NCBI GenBank assembly: GCA_030425785.1
Contig: JAUHYJ010000056.1
Span: forward strand, 1-11,519
Length of the DNA: 11,519 bases
Direction: 5' to 3'
Source of the DNA: Acidimicrobiia bacterium
GTDB lineage: Bacteria; Actinomycetota; Acidimicrobiia; Acidimicrobiales; Ilumatobacteraceae
Part shown: positions 572 to 11,519 of the stretch, piece after piece
How positions within the stretch are numbered: the first letter of the stretch is position 1
Layout: every line of letters begins with the position of its first letter
The notes under the pieces: generated by a model
What the model was told of the DNA's origin: nothing
What the model saw: the letters and a program-made list of their open reading frames with translations, nothing else
Database searches by the model: none
Translations under genes and position numbers: made by a program

Positions 572-2356
572 CTAGGCGGGTTGGGTCCGGGCCCACGCCG
601 ACGACAACGACGCGTACCGCCCGCCGAGCGCGACCAGCTCGTCGTGGGTACCGAGCTCGGCCAGCCGGCCGGCGTCGATCACGGCGATCCGGTCGGCTCG
701 GCGGACGGTGCTCAGCCGGTGGGCGACGACGATCGTCGTCCGGCCCGAGGTGAGCCGCTCGAACGCTTGCTCGACGAGCGCCTCGGTGCCCGGATCGAGG
801 CTCGAGGTCGCCTCGTCGAGCACCAGGACGGCCGGGTCGACCAGGGCAGCCCGCGCGAGCGACACGAGCTGACGCTCGCCGGCCGACAGGCGGGACCCGC
901 GTTCGCGCACCTCGGTGTCGAGACCGTCCGGGAACTGCTCGAACCGCTCGCGGACACCGATCGAGTCGAGCGCGCGGTACAGATCCGCGTCGGACGCGGA
1001 CGGATCGGCGATGCGGAGGTTGTCGGCGATCGTGCCGTCGAACATGAACCCCTCCTGGGGCACGACGACGATCCGACGGCGGAGCGACGCGAGCGTCGCC
1101 TGACGCAGGTCGATGCCCCCGACGGACACCGAACCCTCGCTCGGGTCGTAGAGGCGGGCGATCAGCTTGGCGACCGACGACTTGCCGGCGCCGGTTGGCC
1201 CGACCAGGGCGAGCTTCTCACCGGAGGCGATCGTGAGGTCGATGTCGTCGAGGACCCGGGCCGTCGTGCCCGGATACGAGAACGAGACGTGATCGACGAC
1301 GAGGTCGCCACTCGCCGGCAGGTCGACGGCGCCGGGCGCCTCGTCGAGGTCGGGTGAGGTGTCGAGGATCTGGAACATCTTGTTGAGCGACGCCGTGGCG
1401 GATTGCAGCACGTTGTAGAGCTGCGAGAGCTGCTGCACCGGCTCGAACAGACTCGACAGGAGCAGCACGACCGCGACCACCGTGCCGACCGACACCTGGT
1501 TGTTGGCGGCGAGCCAACCACCGGCACCGATCGCGATGGCGGTGGCGCACACCCCGAGGAACTCGACGACACCGAAGTACCAGGTGGACACCTTGACGCT
1601 GTGGATGTGCGAGTCGTACAGCTCGCGGTTCACGGCACGGAACCGGCGCCGCTGCTCGGGCTCGCGTGCCGACGCCTGGATGACCTGGACCCCGGCGATG
1701 TTCTCCTGCATCGACGACAGGTTCTCGCCGACCTTCTCGCGGACGTCGAGATAGGCGACGTTCGACACCCGCTGGAACCGGCGGGTCGCGAGGATCAGTG
1801 CCGGCATCACCAGCAGCGAGATCAGGGTCAGCTGCCACGACATGACGAGCAGGACGACGAGCGCGAAGCCGACGAGGATCGTGGCCGACACGAACTGGAG
1901 CAGGCCCCACTGCACGAGCTCGGACATCGACTCGATGTCGGCCGTCATGCGCGACACGAGGACGCCGGCCTTGTTGCGGTCGAAGAACGCCAGCGACTGC
2001 CGCTGGATGTGCCCGAACAGCCGGAGCCGCAGACTGCGCAGGAAGCCCTCGCCGGTCAGGTTGACGTAGACGTACTGCAGGCGGCTGCCGACGAACGCCA
2101 CGATCGCGACCACGATGTAGACGCCGATCGCGAGGTTGAGCGCGGCACGGTCACCGTTCGTGATCCCGGTGTCGATGGCGTACCGCAGCAGGAGTGGCCC
2201 GATGATGGTGGTGGCCGTGGCGAGCGTCGCGAAGCCCAGGGTCGCGAGTGCGAGCTTGCGCTGGGGGCGCGCGAGTCGGGCCGCCCGCGCCAGGACGCGC
2301 TTGGCCTCGTCGCGGTCGAGGCGGTCCTCCTCGTCGACACCGGGCGGGACGCGCAT
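572..2356 (-). CDS. ABC exporter half-transporter, catalytically complete subunit
   Basis: This 594-residue protein has the membrane domain first (about residues 30-330, several hydrophobic helices) and then an ATP-binding domain. Visible motifs are Walker A GPTGAGKS (386-393, K392), Q-loop Q434, a variant signature LSAGERQ (490-496), Walker B ending in D514 with the catalytic E515, a D-loop SLD, and switch His546. It belongs to the type IV (exporter, multidrug/lipid-type) ABC family at the cytoplasmic membrane; the substrate cannot be read from sequence. The start ATG (2354-2356) shares one base with the TGA of the upstream transporter gene, so the two are almost certainly translated together. 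The partner has a degenerate Walker B and a canonical LSGGQ, while this subunit has the opposite arrangement. That complementarity is the mark of heterodimers such as TM287/288 and LmrCD. Family and heterodimer are secure; the cargo is not. Confidence 0.93.
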   Translation of the reverse strand: MRVPPGVDEEDRLDRDEAKRVLARAARLARPQRKLALATLGFATLATATTIIGPLLLRYAIDTGITNGDRAALNLAIGVYIVVAIVAFVGSRLQYVYVNLTGEGFLRSLRLRLFGHIQRQSLAFFDRNKAGVLVSRMTADIESMSELVQWGLLQFVSATILVGFALVVLLVMSWQLTLISLLVMPALILATRRFQRVSNVAYLDVREKVGENLSSMQENIAGVQVIQASAREPEQRRRFRAVNRELYDSHIHSVKVSTWYFGVVEFLGVCATAIAIGAGGWLAANNQVSVGTVVAVVLLLSSLFEPVQQLSQLYNVLQSATASLNKMFQILDTSPDLDEAPGAVDLPASGDLVVDHVSFSYPGTTARVLDDIDLTIASGEKLALVGPTGAGKSSVAKLIARLYDPSEGSVSVGGIDLRQATLASLRRRIVVVPQEGFMFDGTIADNLRIADPSASDADLYRALDSIGVRERFEQFPDGLDTEVRERGSRLSAGERQLVSLARAALVDPAVLVLDEATSSLDPGTEALVEQAFERLTSGRTTIVVAHRLSTVRRADRIAVIDAGRLAELGTHDELVALGGRYASLSSAWARTQPA

Positions 2357-4194
2357 CAGCCGGGCACCCCGGACATGTCGTCCATGTCGTCGTCGGTCGA
2401 CGCGCCGCCGGTGTCGTCACCGGCAGCATGGGCAGCGGCGGCGGACGCGGCCAGCACCTGTCGGTAGCGCGCGTCGGACGCGAGCAGCTCGTCGTGGGTG
2501 CCGTCGGCGACCACTCGCCCGCCGTCGAGCAGCACGACCCGATCGGCCATCGCGATCGTGCCGGCGCGGTGCGCGATCACGATGGTCGTGCGGTCCTGCA
2601 TCACCGTGCCCATCGCGCCGCGGATCTCGTGCTCCTTGCTCGGGTCGACGGCGCTGGTGGCGTCGTCGAGGATCAGCACGTCGGGGTCGGCCACGACGGC
2701 GCGGGCGATCGCGATGCGCTGACGCTGGCCACCCGACAGCGAGAAGCCGCGCTCGCCGAGGATCGTGTCGTACCCGTGCGGCAGCGCGTCGATGAACTCG
2801 GCCGCGCCGGCGAGCTCGGCCGCCCGGCGGACCTCGTCGAAGGTCGCGTCGGGATGCGCGAACGCGATGTTCGCGGCGACGGTGTCGTGGAACAGCAGCG
2901 TGTCCTCGAACACCAGCCCGACCGAGCGCCGGACGTCGTGGACTGCCATGTCGCGCAGATCGACACCACCGAGCGAGATCGATCCGGCCGACGGGTCGTA
3001 GAAGCGGATCAGCAGGCGGGCGATCGTCGACTTGCCGCTGCCGGTCGCGCCGACGACGGCGATCGACGAGCCGGCCGGGACGTCGAACGACAACCCGTCG
3101 AGCACGGTGTCGCCGCCGTCGTAGCCGAACGTGACACCCTCGAAGCGCACGTGGCCGGCATCGGTCGGCCGGGCGACGGGCTGGTCGGGGTCGACGACCT
3201 CGGGGGTGACGCTCAGCACGTCGTCGATGCGCTCGAGTGCTGCAGCACCGCGCTGCGCGAACGCGACCGTCATGCCGATCGAGCGCAGCGGCCACACGAG
3301 CAGCTGGACGTAGAAGTTGAACGCGACGAGGTCGCCGATCGTCATCTCACCGTTGATGACCCGATAGCCGCCCACACCGAGCACGGCGATGAGTCCGATC
3401 GACGGGAGCAGTTCGTTGACGGGCAGGTGGGTCGCGCGGATGCGGGCGGCCTTCATCGACGCGCCCTTGATGTCGTCGGCCTCGGTGGCGAGCTTGTCGG
3501 CCTGGACCTGCTCGGCGCCGAACCCCTTCACGACGCGGATGCCGGCGACCGTCTCCTCGACGACGTTGGCGAGCTGCGCCTGCTCCTGCTGCACCTCGTG
3601 CACCGCCGGGTGGACACGCGTCGAGAAGCGACGGCCGTTGACGTAGATGAACGGCAACGGCAGGAGCGCGAACAGGGCGAGCACCGGGTCCATCACGAAC
3701 AGGGCGATCACGACGAAGGTGATGAGGAAGAAGTTCGACACCGTGATCGGGATCATCACGACGAACGCCTGGATCTGGTTGAGGTCGCTCGAGCCCCGGC
3801 TCATGAGCTGACCGGTCTGGGCCCGGTCGTGGAACCCGATGTGCAGGCCGAGGATGTGGTCGAGCAACTGCTCGCGGAGGCGACGCTCGACCAGGCGGCT
3901 CTGCGAGAACGCGATGAAGCGCCGCAGCGCCGTGAAGGTGCCGGTGACGAGGCCGGCGCACCCGATCCAGATCGCCCACTTCCAGGCGCTCTCCTCACCG
4001 AGGATCGCACGGTCGATGGCGAGGCGCGTGAGCTGTGGGATCGCCACCTTGCCGAGCGTCCACATCAACCCGACGGCGATGCCGAGCCCCAACCCGACCC
4101 ACTGACGCCGGAGTAGGGCGAGCAGCGGCTTCCACGGCGCGCTGGATGGCGCGCGATCGGGGGGTCGTTCGTCGTCGGTCACGTGGCGATCCAC
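2356..4194 (-). CDS. ABC exporter half-transporter, degenerate-site subunit
   Basis: This 612-residue protein has a membrane domain (about 30-320) followed by an ATP-binding domain. Walker A is GATGSGKS (K388) and the signature is a canonical LSGGQ (486-490). The catalytic Glu after Walker B is Asp (D510-D511, LDDATS) and the Q-loop position carries Glu (E430 in VFEDTL). Switch His542 is kept. Asp for Glu and the lost Q-loop Gln are typical of the non-hydrolysing site in heterodimeric exporters. The C-terminus ends in an Ala-rich then Asp/Gly-rich tail (about 583-612) that is probably disordered. It is first in the pair and overlaps the next start by one base. The GTG at 4194 gives the longest product. 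However, a TAGCGT box lies at 4193-4198 on the minus strand, overlapping that GTG, and would favour the in-frame GTG at 4182 (608 residues). Confidence 0.92.
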   Translation of the reverse strand: MDRHVTDDERPPDRAPSSAPWKPLLALLRRQWVGLGLGIAVGLMWTLGKVAIPQLTRLAIDRAILGEESAWKWAIWIGCAGLVTGTFTALRRFIAFSQSRLVERRLREQLLDHILGLHIGFHDRAQTGQLMSRGSSDLNQIQAFVVMIPITVSNFFLITFVVIALFVMDPVLALFALLPLPFIYVNGRRFSTRVHPAVHEVQQEQAQLANVVEETVAGIRVVKGFGAEQVQADKLATEADDIKGASMKAARIRATHLPVNELLPSIGLIAVLGVGGYRVINGEMTIGDLVAFNFYVQLLVWPLRSIGMTVAFAQRGAAALERIDDVLSVTPEVVDPDQPVARPTDAGHVRFEGVTFGYDGGDTVLDGLSFDVPAGSSIAVVGATGSGKSTIARLLIRFYDPSAGSISLGGVDLRDMAVHDVRRSVGLVFEDTLLFHDTVAANIAFAHPDATFDEVRRAAELAGAAEFIDALPHGYDTILGERGFSLSGGQRQRIAIARAVVADPDVLILDDATSAVDPSKEHEIRGAMGTVMQDRTTIVIAHRAGTIAMADRVVLLDGGRVVADGTHDELLASDARYRQVLAASAAAAHAAGDDTGGASTDDDMDDMSGVPG

Positions 4195-4255: not shown

Positions 4256-4612
4256 TCAGCCGCCGAGCAGCTCGCGGACACGCTCCTTCGGCCGGCCGAT
4301 GATGGCGGTCGAGTCGGTGACGACGAGCGGGCGCTGCATGATCATCTTGTTGGCGGTGATGACGTCGACGATCTGGTCGACGGTCTGCACGTCGTCGTCG
4401 GACAGCTCGAGCTTCTTGAAGAGGCTGTCACGCCGGACGAGGTCGGTCGGCGGGTCCTCGAGCTTGGCGATGATGTCGCGCAGGGTGTCCGCGTCGGGCG
4501 GGGCCTTGCGGTAGATCACGATGTCGGCGTCGACGCCCAGTTCTTCGGCAATGCGCACGGCATTGGTCGACGAGTTTCAATTCGGGTTGTGGTAGATCGT
4601 CACGGTGCTCAC
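4256..4612 (-). CDS. arsC: ArsC/YfgD-like thiol oxidoreductase with in-frame TGA at the active site, probable selenoprotein
   Basis: Reading from GTG 4612, the protein is 118 residues and begins MSTVTIYHNPN-U-NSSTNA, where U is the TGA codon at 4577-4579. ArsC-family enzymes (about 115-120 residues, thioredoxin-like fold) have YHNPxC there, and that Cys is the catalytic nucleophile, so TGA replaces exactly this residue (position 12). The rest is intact: an Arg after the LVRRDSLFKKL helix, the QRPLVVTD strand and the IGRPKERV end match the family's conserved Arg positions. Known role: reduction of arsenate or of a related oxidised thiol substrate with glutaredoxin or thioredoxin partners; YfgD-like members are less well defined. 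A 6-bp hairpin with GU in its loop follows the TGA, as expected for a bacterial SECIS. Without recoding, only the 100-residue part from ATG 4558 would be called, and it lacks the active site. The GTG is supported by a TACCGT box 8 nt upstream. The alternative is a nonsense mutation of TGC or TGT. Confidence 0.85.
4549..4565 (-). promoter_or_regulatory. Bacterial SECIS-like hairpin after the ArsC-like TGA
   Basis: In the mRNA, CAAUGC pairs perfectly with GCAUUG (6 bp, no mismatch) around a five-base loop CGUGC. The stem begins at nt 12 after the UGA and the loop at nt 18. Bacterial SECIS elements lie inside the coding region about 16-37 nt from UGA to the apical loop, with a G, preferably GU, among the first two loop bases. 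Here the second and third loop bases are GU. A self-complementary GUCGAC at nt 6-11 recurs at nt 43-48 and could add a lower stem. SelB would bind the apical loop to deliver Sec-tRNA. This is read by eye and not tested by a folding programme. Confidence 0.7.
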
Positions 4613-4620
4613 GGCGCGAC

Positions 4621-4626
4621 ACGGTA
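4621..4626 (-). promoter_or_regulatory. Candidate -10 box (TACCGT) for the ArsC-like gene
   Basis: TACCGT on the minus strand lies 8 nt before the GTG at 4612. This matches the TANNNT spacing of leaderless or nearly leaderless actinobacterial transcripts. No Shine-Dalgarno precedes the GTG. The box therefore supports the upstream GTG, rather than the ATG at 4558, as the true start, which puts the TGA inside the gene. Confidence 0.5.
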
Positions 4627-4745: not shown

Positions 4746-5204
4746 ATGTCCGCTCCCCTCCCCCGCCGCGTGCCCCGTGCGCGCATCGACCCGATCGACG
4801 ACGCGCGCCGGGCGCGCACGCTGATCGACGCTGTGGTCGCCGTGCCACTGCGACCCGAGACGATCGTCGTCGTGCTCGACGACGCCCACTGCGGCCTCGG
4901 CATCGTCACCGTCGACGGTGCCGGCGACCCCGAGCGCACCGTCGCCGTCGTCGAGGTGCTCGCGGTGCCGGGCCTGTTCGACGGCGAGGCCGGCGCGCTG
5001 CTCGTGGCAACGGTCTGCCCGTCCCGCCCAGACGCTGCCTGCCTGCAGGCCGATGATGCCGACCGCTGGTTCGAGATGTGCGATCTGGCCGAGGCGGCCG
5101 GGCTCGAACTCGTCGAGTGGTTCGTCTACGGGCCCGACGGCGTCAGCTGTCCGCGTGACCGGACGGGTTCGCCGCCGCGCTGGCCCGCCGCTCGGTGGGC
5201 GTGA
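4746..5204 (+). CDS. Protein of unknown function, 152 residues
   Basis: I do not recognise this family with confidence. The first 20 or so residues are Arg/Pro-rich. A compact alpha/beta core follows: the strand ETIVVVLDDAHCGLGIVTV (about 38-56), an acidic helix around 61-75, ALLVATVCPSR (84-93), and DADRWFEMCDLAEAAGLELVEWFVYG (104-129). The last segment, a hydrophobic strand then Trp-Phe-x-x-Gly, faintly recalls the end of RadC/JAB-like domains ('lG...L.D..i.G'). The His/Ser/Asp zinc motif of JAB proteases is absent, so I make no functional claim. It has no signal peptide or membrane span. The start is set by a strong Shine-Dalgarno. The last 62 bases overlap the DUF4031 gene tail to tail, and the C-terminal 20 residues (Arg/Pro/Ala-rich) are probably disordered. 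It is divergent from the ArsC-like gene across 133 bp. Confidence 0.75.
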   Translation: MSAPLPRRVPRARIDPIDDARRARTLIDAVVAVPLRPETIVVVLDDAHCGLGIVTVDGAGDPERTVAVVEVLAVPGLFDGEAGALLVATVCPSRPDAACLQADDADRWFEMCDLAEAAGLELVEWFVYGPDGVSCPRDRTGSPPRWPAARWA

Positions 5205-7720: not shown

Positions 7721-8902
7721 TCAGGCCCCGCCGGCGCTGCGGCGCAGATCGGCCACGGCGCCGTGCGCCTCGTCGGCGAACACTCGGGCGAGCGCGTGGT
7801 CGACCTCGCCGGGCCGCTCGTGCAGGACGGCGAGGCGGGCGAGCGCCGCGTGCACACGGTCGAAGTCGCGTCGGGCCCGACGTGGCAGCGCCTTGCGGAC
7901 GGCGACGAGTCGTTGCCAGCTGCCGAACACCTCGGCCTCGGCCGGCGGAATCCCGTAGCGGAGCACCAGACCGCCCACGGCGTCGACGAAGCGTCGCTGC
8001 TCGCGCCGACGCGCCCGTCGCAGCCCGATCGCGACGGCGACGAAGAGGGCCACGAACAGCGCGATGCCACCGATCAGCACACCGGCGCCGATGCGTTCGT
8101 CGACCGAGTACGTGAGGTCGCCGAGCGCGAGCGTCCCGTTCCACATCGCGTGCGTCAGGATCGCGAGCGCGAGGCCCCACCACATCGCCGGCCACACGGG
8201 CCGACCGTTGAACACGGCCCGGCCGATCGCCCACCCGCTCCAGAACGTGAACAACGGATGAGCGAACGGGGTGAGGAACGCGCGCAGCACGATGGTCGCG
8301 ACGAGCGCGCCGTCGATGTCGGCCAGCCAGAAGTAGGTCATGTCCTCGACGACCGCGAACCCGAGCGCGACCCACCCGGCGTAGACGATCCCGTCACTGA
8401 TGCCGTCGACCTCGCGCCGTCGCACGGCCCACACGATCCCGAGCGCCTTGGTCGCCTCCTCGACGACCGGTGCCGAGACGACCATCGCGACGATCTCGCC
8501 GCCGAGCCACGCGGTGACGGTGTTCGCGACCCACGACACGACGATCGCGACGGTGCCGCCCCACAGCAGCGCGTGGATGCGAGACGGCCGGGGTTCGGGT
8601 TCGACGCGGTCGAGCCACGACAGGACCGGCAGCACGATCACGAGCGGGATCAGCCCCGCGACGACGGCGATCGGCGACTGGACGCCGATGAGACCGACGA
8701 TCAGGACGACGAGGACGCCACACGCCAGCACCGGTGGACTCAACCAGCCGGGCAGCCTCGGGATCCGGCCGTGCCGGCTGGTGACGATCGTGCTCCAGGC
8801 GGATCCGTCGTGCCACCGCCAGCGGCGCGCGTCGGCGGGGTCGGGTCGCCACTGGGCGACCGGGCGGATCGTCGCCGCATCGGGTGGTGGCAGGTCGCTC
8901 AT
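7721..8902 (-). CDS. PrsW-family glutamic intramembrane protease with N-terminal DUF2510-like motif
   Basis: This 393-residue protein begins with a cytosolic WRPDP...RWRWHDGSAWS motif (18-36) resembling DUF2510, then hydrophobic helices at about 53-75, 77-97, 112-132, 136-150, 170-190, 195-212, 240-257 and 272-294. The PrsW/M82 signatures are present: PVVEEATK (E148-E149), GFAVVEDMTYF (E186), FAHPLFTFWSG (H214) and THAMWN (H251, N255). PrsW proteases cut transmembrane or near-membrane anti-sigma factors and related substrates; the target here is unknown. A roughly 100-residue basic cytosolic tail (295-393) extends beyond the core. ATG 8902 follows the upstream 4Fe-4S gene's stop by three bases, so the pair is cotranscribed and probably coupled. 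It converges on the M20 gene. Confidence 0.9.
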   Translation of the reverse strand: MSDLPPPDAATIRPVAQWRPDPADARRWRWHDGSAWSTIVTSRHGRIPRLPGWLSPPVLACGVLVVLIVGLIGVQSPIAVVAGLIPLVIVLPVLSWLDRVEPEPRPSRIHALLWGGTVAIVVSWVANTVTAWLGGEIVAMVVSAPVVEEATKALGIVWAVRRREVDGISDGIVYAGWVALGFAVVEDMTYFWLADIDGALVATIVLRAFLTPFAHPLFTFWSGWAIGRAVFNGRPVWPAMWWGLALAILTHAMWNGTLALGDLTYSVDERIGAGVLIGGIALFVALFVAVAIGLRRARRREQRRFVDAVGGLVLRYGIPPAEAEVFGSWQRLVAVRKALPRRARRDFDRVHAALARLAVLHERPGEVDHALARVFADEAHGAVADLRRSAGGA

Positions 8903-10727: not shown

Positions 10728-11129
10728 GTGAGCGACGCACCCGCCGACACGCCCGAACCGGCCCCGATCGACGAAGCGACGATCGAACGCATCCTCGGCG
10801 AGTTCGTCGACCGTCACGCCGATGTCGATGCCGCCGTGTTCGGCTCCGCCGACGGGCACCCGATCGCTGCCGCCGGCGCCGGCGCCGAACCGGCCACGGT
10901 CGCCGCGATGGGCGCGGCAGCCGTCGGGCTCGCCGGGCAACTGCTGCGGTTCGGTGGGGACGCCGGCGGCGGTGATGCGAACGTCCGCGGGGGCGATGCG
11001 CAGGTCTGGGTGATCGACGTGCGCGGTGCCGCGACCCTGACGGTGATCGGCCGGGCGACCGCGCCCGGAGCCGTCGCCGCGGCCGCGCGAGCCCTCGGTG
11101 AACACCTCGTCACCCTGCTCCGCCCCTGA
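10728..11129 (+). CDS. Roadblock/LC7-like domain protein
   Basis: From GTG 10728 the product has 133 residues: a short acidic Pro-rich N-terminus (about 1-15), a helix IERILGEFVDRHADV, the strand-turn AAVFGSADGHPIAAAGAGAE, a long Ala-rich helix ATVAAMGAAAVGLAGQLLRFGG, then strands AQVWVIDV and ATLTVIGRA and a final helix. The order helix, 'voxSxDGxPia', helix, two strands, helix is that of Roadblock/LC7 (MglB-like) proteins. In actinobacteria such proteins often accompany small GTPases or sensor systems, but no GTPase gene is in this window, so the partner is unknown. The GTG is supported by a -10 box six bases upstream; the longer frame from 10686 would start inside the repeat. The gene is antisense to the unexpected read-through of the DnaE2 frame, which covers 10814-11129. 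Confidence 0.78.
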   Translation: MSDAPADTPEPAPIDEATIERILGEFVDRHADVDAAVFGSADGHPIAAAGAGAEPATVAAMGAAAVGLAGQLLRFGGDAGGGDANVRGGDAQVWVIDVRGAATLTVIGRATAPGAVAAAARALGEHLVTLLRP

Positions 11130-11519
11130 CTGCGGACGTCGGCGGTCATCCTGAGCGGCGTCAGGTGTTCGGCGACGATGTTGATGACACCTTCGGAGCG
11201 TTCGAGCCGGCCGCGGATGACCAGCGCCTGGGCGCTGCGGGCGATCGGCCGGAACCGGGCCCAGCACCCCTTCGACACGACGACGTTCATCAGGCCGGTC
11301 TCGTCTTCGAGCGACAGGAACATCGTGCCCTGCGCCGTCATCGGCCGCTGGCGGTGGGTCACCACACCCGCCACCAGCACCTTGCTGTCCGGGTCACGGG
11401 TCGGGAGCTGATCGGCGGGCGCCACGCCGAGCTCGTCGAGCTGGTCGCGCAGGAACCGGGTGGGGTGGCCGTCGGGCGACACGCCGGTCGACCACAGGTC
11501 GGCGATCGATTCCTCGACC
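10814..11519 (-). CDS. dnaE2: Error-prone DNA polymerase DnaE2, C-terminal end, stop apparently missing
   Basis: The frame enters from the right edge with VEESIADLWSTGVSPDGHP and FLRDQLDELGVAPADQL, then the OB-fold segment VLVAGVVTHRQRPMTAQGT and MFLSLEDETGLMNVVVSKG. It ends in recognisable homology near LTPLRMTADVRS (about 11130). This matches the C-terminus of the error-prone alpha subunit of DnaE2 type, which replaces DnaE1 at lesions and works with ImuA/ImuB in damage-induced mutagenesis. The family normally stops within about ten residues of that point, often after S-R-D-F-R. Here the frame has no stop there and runs on for about 105 low-complexity Arg/Ala/Pro/Ser codons to TGA 10814, antisense to most of the Roadblock gene. 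Either the stop was lost, a frameshift lies near 11130-11150, or the extension is real. The polymerase identity is firm; the end is not. Confidence 0.85.
   Translation of the reverse strand, partial: VEESIADLWSTGVSPDGHPTRFLRDQLDELGVAPADQLPTRDPDSKVLVAGVVTHRQRPMTAQGTMFLSLEDETGLMNVVVSKGCWARFRPIARSAQALVIRGRLERSEGVINIVAEHLTPLRMTADVRSQGRSRVTRCSPRARAAAATAPGAVARPITVRVAAPRTSITQTCASPPRTFASPPPASPPNRSSCPASPTAAAPIAATVAGSAPAPAAAIGCPSAEPNTAASTSA

Follow-up and report, generated by a model that had tools for sequence, protein, structure and literature searches.

An arsC-family gene with an in-frame TGA in an Acidimicrobiia genome very probably encodes an ArsC-like selenoprotein

A gene that seems to be broken by a stop codon in the draft genome of an Acidimicrobiia bacterium very probably encodes a full-length ArsC-like selenoprotein with selenocysteine (Sec) at its active site. 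The gene lies on a contig of 11,519 nucleotides, the whole stretch of DNA that was analysed and that we call the window (Table 1). The draft genome is 83% complete, comprises 857 contigs and is probably a MAG. The minus-strand frame reads VSTVTIYHNPN-TGA-NSSTNAV followed by 99 residues, with 118 codons before the stop. This agrees with a first-pass annotation made from the sequence alone, which had proposed the frame YHNPN-TGA-NSST from the same GTG and a full-length remainder of 106 residues: 106 codons do follow the in-frame TGA, and the read-through protein matches the Pfam ArsC profile PF03960 with 49.8 bits (cut-off 24), over nearly the whole profile and across the TGA. The table-11 ORF list of the window contains for this gene only a fragment of 100 residues (4558-4256), as had been anticipated for a standard gene caller. 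Since this fragment is devoid of the active site, such genes are easily missed or misnamed.

Table 1. Position and nature of the arsC-family gene, its signals and its neighbours in the window
Feature	Position	Strand	Basis
arsC-family gene, predicted selenoprotein of 118 residues	4256..4612	minus	GTG start 4612-4610, TGA stop 4258-4256; Pfam, alignment, dN/dS
In-frame TGA, predicted to be read as selenocysteine (Sec12) in place of the ArsC catalytic Cys12	4577..4579	minus	codon column in homologues
Bacterial SECIS-like hairpin CAAUGC-CGUGC-GCAUUG, GU in the loop	4549..4565	minus	nucleotides 12-28 after the UGA; conservation
TACCGT, likely -10 promoter box	4621..4626	minus	starts 14 nt before the GTG; TANNNT conserved
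ABC transporter, membrane and ATPase parts, first downstream gene	2356..4194	minus	PF00664, PF00005; adjoins arsC in several relatives
Second ABC transporter of the pair	572..2356	minus	PF00664, PF00005
Divergent upstream gene, conserved neighbour marking the locus	4746..5204	plus	no Pfam match

ArsC selenoproteins with a UxxS motif are already known from marine DNA and the window gene adds a new member to them. A paper on the Sargasso Sea described 14 Sec-containing arsenate reductases with the motif UXXS in 2005 (PMC1088965), ArsC-like selenoproteins were reported in Desulfotalea and Desulfuromonas in 2006 (PMC1794560), and the GOS paper of 2008 includes a family 'Arsenate reductase (ArsC) 1' (pfam03960, UxxS) with 77 sequences (PMC2398784). 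The remark in the first-pass annotation that Sec forms of ArsC-like proteins had been predicted in marine metagenomes was therefore right. The UxxS family is also listed in reviews of 2022 and 2026 (PMC9312934, PMC13188914), and the latter counts arsenate reductase among the selenoproteins found bioinformatically that are functionally largely uncharacterised. Likened by their published description, the proteins of 2005 and 2008 and the window protein have in common COG1393/PF03960, Sec at the position of the catalytic Cys, the UxxS motif (here U12-N-S-S), a downstream hairpin and Cys homologues. The former are described from marine metagenome reads, whereas the window gene is carried by a contig of 11.5 kb in an actinobacterial draft genome, and beyond those descriptions the present set includes the Sec machinery, relatives, a promoter, hairpins of two types and a return to Cys. 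In the open-access literature we found no paper joining selenocysteine, selenoprotein and a word beginning with Acidimicrobi, which is not proof of absence.

The window's own genome was examined together with those of 60 relatives, and a homologue match was obtained in 42 of these 61 genomes. One match (G059) is partial and does not include the catalytic column while another genome (G021) gives two homologues, so that the codon was read in 42 homologues from 41 genomes. It is TGA in 24, TGC in 16 and TGT in 2. The in-frame TGA is thus located, as first proposed, exactly where the 18 Cys homologues carry a codon for the catalytic residue. The Sec form is present in 20 of the 37 genomes of the same family and in 4 of the 24 genomes from other families of the order. 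The first-pass annotation had considered that a chromosomal actinobacterial case would be notable: the actinobacterial Sec form is upheld, but the framing as a single case was too narrow. A second set, a scan of named genomes that partly overlaps the first (the same gene is sometimes in both, as identical proteins such as L097 and L022), yielded at least 80 loci, 79 of them with the catalytic column. Among the matches listed, these 79 loci include at least 16 with TGA, 44 with TGC and 19 with TGT, the Sec count being a lower bound because the active-site pattern of the scan contains Cys and is presumably blind to TGA. The question raised at the outset, whether this column holds only Cys codons or TGA, can be answered for both sets: no codon other than TGA, TGC or TGT occurs among the 121 rows (matches listed). 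The named records L097 and L098 have proteins identical to those of the same-family genomes G022 and G034, which points to Ilumatobacteraceae (Acidimicrobiia) as the family of the window. We also observed that 30 of the 38 Sec forms and no fewer than 72 of the 78 Cys forms retain the proline of YHNPxC, at residue -2 relative to the catalytic position, and that it has further replacements among additional Sec loci.

In bacteria, the SECIS consensus has a G early in the apical loop. The window hairpin, a perfect 6-bp stem closed by the loop CGUGC and starting 12 nt after the UGA as first described, exhibits this feature. The exact pattern TGA-N11-CARTGCCGTGMGCATTG occurs once each in 18 of the 397 genomes of the order, including that of the window, and all 18 matches correspond to the Sec-arsC gene; the reversed control gave 0 matches in the same 397 genomes. 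When the 38 distinct Sec rows were sorted by eye on their hairpin, 22 (including the window) fell into a type A, 14 into a type B and 2 (L032 and L107) into neither. In type A (CAAUGC-CGUGM-GCAUUG, nucleotides 12-28 after the UGA) all pairs form in 22/22 rows and five of the six pairs are invariant; this pairing is partly obtained by construction, since the rows were sorted on the hairpin itself, and covariation says nothing for a type that is nearly invariant. The pattern search across the 397 genomes is free of this fault. The type B hairpin (CCUUGGC-GGUC-GCCGAGG) is located about 5 nt farther from the UGA in a basal set of 14 sequences from Actinomycetota and Verrucomicrobiota. Its cells are paired in 99% of cases and it shows compensatory changes: 7 cells are altered on both sides where shuffles give 1.7, and none of 500 shuffles reached this value; three pairs have a change on both sides, a number that 15 of the 500 shuffles reached.

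Codon choice in the hairpin region is also constrained in the Sec forms. At codon offsets +4 to +9 their sameness exceeds the prediction from codon usage by 0.17 to 0.60 (relatedness uncorrected), against just -0.09 to 0.03 in the Cys forms; columns -4, -3, +1, +3 and +17 of the Sec forms are also in excess, by 0.12 to 0.34 (relatedness again uncorrected). The 45 nt that follow the TGA gave no signal in folding energy relative to synonymous-codon shuffles (for the window z is +1.47, hence not lower), nor did the comparison of Sec and Cys forms (mean z -0.55 for 24 rows and -0.18 for 18 rows, p 0.15). The case for the hairpin therefore rests on conservation, plus covariation for type B, and not on stability. 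The first-pass reading of this structure as a SECIS element accordingly stands as far as conservation is concerned, with a pattern specific to arsC in 18 of 397 genomes and fixed synonymous codons, and receives nothing from folding stability.

Residue 12 and Arg60, Arg94 and Arg107 are invariant in 32/32 aligned proteins (24 Sec and 8 Cys forms, which are all of the 42 homologues except the ten Cys forms most distant from the window protein). In the alignment they have the same numbers as in 1I9D, which like 1J9B is a structure of ArsC of the E. coli plasmid R773. The roles of these four residues are presumed from that enzyme, which by sequence belongs to the same fold family. Unlike R773 ArsC, the window protein has Sec for Cys, no other Cys, no adjacent ars genes and a host that perhaps uses mycothiol; in addition, most Sec forms have another residue in place of Arg16 of the CxxSR motif. 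By homology, Sec12 would act as the nucleophile on an arsenate held by Arg60, Arg94 and Arg107, like Cys12 in R773 ArsC. Cys is absent from all 40 Sec rows, which represent 38 distinct sequences taken from the assumed start onwards, so that an internal bond is impossible and an outside thiol would be needed. The window protein differs in this from the UxxC arsenate reductase-like selenoprotein (NF041106; 2026 review, PMC13188914) and from the GOS 'Arsenate reductase 2' (cd03032, UxxC), which belong to the same ArsC superfamily and also have a Sec nucleophile but, as they are described, possess a partner Cys where the window protein has Ser. Mycothiol, together with a mycoredoxin-like glutaredoxin, might plausibly release arsenite and regenerate the selenol. 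The window's genome contains matches to an MshC-like ligase (417 bits, below the cut-off of 485) and to a glutaredoxin of the actinobacterial type (73 bits, below the cut-off of 89.5), which weakly hint at mycothiol; among 14 control genomes, however, the former search also matches in all 14 and the latter in 11. Arsenite would finally leave the cell through an ACR3 exporter.

Arsenate is a substrate that we infer, because the protein reaches 93.6 bits over the full TIGR00014 arsC equivalog model, below the NCBI curated cut-off of 106.05, and no ars gene occurs among the ten neighbouring ORFs scanned. Both observations also speak for a genuine selenoprotein whose substrate is not arsenate, a member of the ArsC/Spx superfamily with a redox or stress function and a conserved fold. 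The replacement of Arg16 in most Sec forms points in the same direction, as does the window's own genome (83% complete), where neither ACR3 (TIGR00832) nor another SBF-family gene was found. This alternative nevertheless appears unlikely to us in view of the invariance of the nucleophile position and of the three arginines in all 32 aligned proteins. Moreover, ten solved arsenate reductases match the window protein at E values from 5e-21 to 6e-12 (a putative one at 4e-4), the best of them far better than the Spx/MgsR regulators, members of the same superfamily with a weak sequence match (best Spx E value 4e-6). An SBF-family transporter is also present in 9 of the 10 genomes searched, all except the window's own, and the one that was examined further, from G021, is an ACR3 (454 bits, cut-off 283). 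A working ArsC-family selenoprotein acting on arsenate is, as a whole, a likely explanation; our confidence goes no higher because the substrate, which the alternative denies, is part of it. For the selenoprotein itself, with arsenate left aside, the probability is in our view very high.

The machinery that a selenoprotein needs is present in the same draft genome. The four genes to which the first-pass annotation had directed attention were all recovered: selA (400 bits, cut-off 268) adjoins selB (265 bits, cut-off 242), which is cut by a contig end, and they are accompanied by selD (327 bits, cut-off 125) and by a tRNA-Sec gene (selC; score 66, gathering score 47) with the anticodon UCA according to ARAGORN. 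The genome therefore has the Sec-decoding trait. It also includes an FdhA-like gene (G000 contig C485:810-2681, L174; 654 bits, slightly below the cut-off of 666) with an in-frame TGA in the sequence NRTUHAPSVVG, followed by a hairpin with a GGUCU loop. We take this TGA to be the FdhA Sec site and the loop to be that of E. coli fdhF, and the gene is a probable second selenoprotein of this genome. An ORF scan for Sec genes in L072-L074 and L174 returned many chance frames, and of its output the FdhA line and three SelD lines were used. The latter indicate that SelD of the relatives L072, L073 and L074 is itself a probable selenoprotein (GAGU-x-CK); the SelD match in the window's genome is without TGA. 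Across the genome set, a selA match was found in 22 of the 24 genomes with the Sec form (in G002 as a fragment at a contig end) and not in the other two, which are drafts 74% and 90% complete, compared with 10 of the 17 genomes that have the Cys form only. The presence of selA is thus weakly linked to the form of arsC (Fisher p 0.02, relatedness uncorrected and any match counted, including the G002 fragment).

We propose that SelB, guided by the hairpin just 3' of the UGA, would deliver Sec-tRNA(UCA) and that residue 12 would consequently be selenocysteine, as the machinery, the column pattern and the conservation of the hairpin suggest. Some bacteria carry tRNAs with a UCA anticodon that are charged with Cys or Ser, and with orthologues that carry Cys at this position one could imagine that a modified tRNA decodes the TGA as cysteine or as another residue. 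Such a decoding seems very improbable in a genome with selA, selB, selD and a good tRNA-Sec, where the FdhA-like gene has a TGA at its presumed Sec position and the arsC hairpin is conserved.

A pseudogene, a sequencing error or a nonsense mutation, leaving the 100-residue fragment from GTG 4558, would account for the table-11 ORF list, which shows just that fragment. This is scarcely credible and was rejected: the TGA column is common to many separate assemblies from several families and phyla, and the part of the gene 3' of the TGA has a dN/dS of 0.18-0.32 relative to eight members of the same genus. A promoter box also precedes the upstream start. The TACCGT sequence that the first-pass annotation had invoked in favour of this start belongs to a conserved TANNNT motif, whose first nucleotide is 11-15 nt upstream of the start codon in 32 rows out of 42 against 1.6 expected from mononucleotide shuffles (the count covers the Sec forms and their near Cys relatives but not 12 Cys rows that are more distant). 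A -10 box so near the start codon suggests a leaderless transcript, and the arsC mRNA is probably of this kind. A genome-wide reassignment of TGA to a sense codon was rejected as practically negligible because TGA is the stop codon of eight of the nine window ORFs checked, arsC among them, and TAG that of the ninth.

A tree was built from 84 proteins (38 Sec and 46 Cys) with the catalytic column masked, after removal of identical proteins and of the Cys rows numbered L141 and higher. The distribution of Sec and Cys over this tree requires 3 changes, or 3-4 over bootstrap trees; when the labels are shuffled, 27.9 are required. All 38 Sec rows are included, with four Cys rows, in one set of 42 rows (support 86/85, unstarred). 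One part of this set (93/73) comprises 16 Sec rows, those of type B plus the two that fit neither type; the other is a branch of 26 rows composed of the type A Sec rows and the Cys forms G034, G019, G020 and G024. G034 branches first within this type A part, so that one gain followed by two reversions is as short as two gains and one reversion; the existence of two types of hairpin would agree with a double gain of Sec. The reversion of G019, G020 and G024 is located inside a starred set of 25 rows, though on branches below the star. Both G019 and G034 have a Cys orthologue at the locus of the window gene. In G019, the window's neighbours are kept and Cys replaces Sec (record L096 has an identical protein), and the Sec form occurs in G262, of the same genus. 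No selA match was found in G019 (99% complete), nor any selB, selC or selD match above cut-off; this relative has lost the Sec machinery and carries Cys at the same locus.

Sec-arsC genes are also found in Verrucomicrobiota (L104, L105, L106 and L111) and in Myxococcales (L095), inside an otherwise actinobacterial set of the tree. Gene transfer is the likely origin of these forms, binning error being the alternative. Our opinion is evenly divided on a history in which Sec-arsC of Acidimicrobiia would result either from one gain, with a shift from hairpin B (GGUC loop) to hairpin A (arsC-specific CGUGM loop, about 5 nt nearer the UGA), or from two gains each with its own hairpin, and in which the gene would have moved between phyla (Verrucomicrobiota, Myxococcota) and returned to Cys in at least one lineage, one genome losing the whole Sec machinery. 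If this is correct, the family would represent a natural experiment on the origin or rebuilding of a SECIS inside a coding sequence, and would also bear on why Sec persists in an enzyme without any Cys. The set combines orthologues of both forms at one locus with two types of hairpin and with the single-contig genomes G001, G009 and G021, and makes directly testable what a Cys enzyme gains from Sec and in what way a SECIS originates or is altered.

The same-strand pair of ABC transporter genes downstream of arsC and the divergent upstream gene are kept in several relatives. Elsewhere in the window, the minus strand encodes a PrsW-type intramembrane metalloprotease (7721-8902; PF13367, 129 bits) and, near the window edge, an OB-fold domain protein (10814-11482; PF01336) which presumably resembles the C-terminal region of a DnaE2-type DNA polymerase III alpha subunit.
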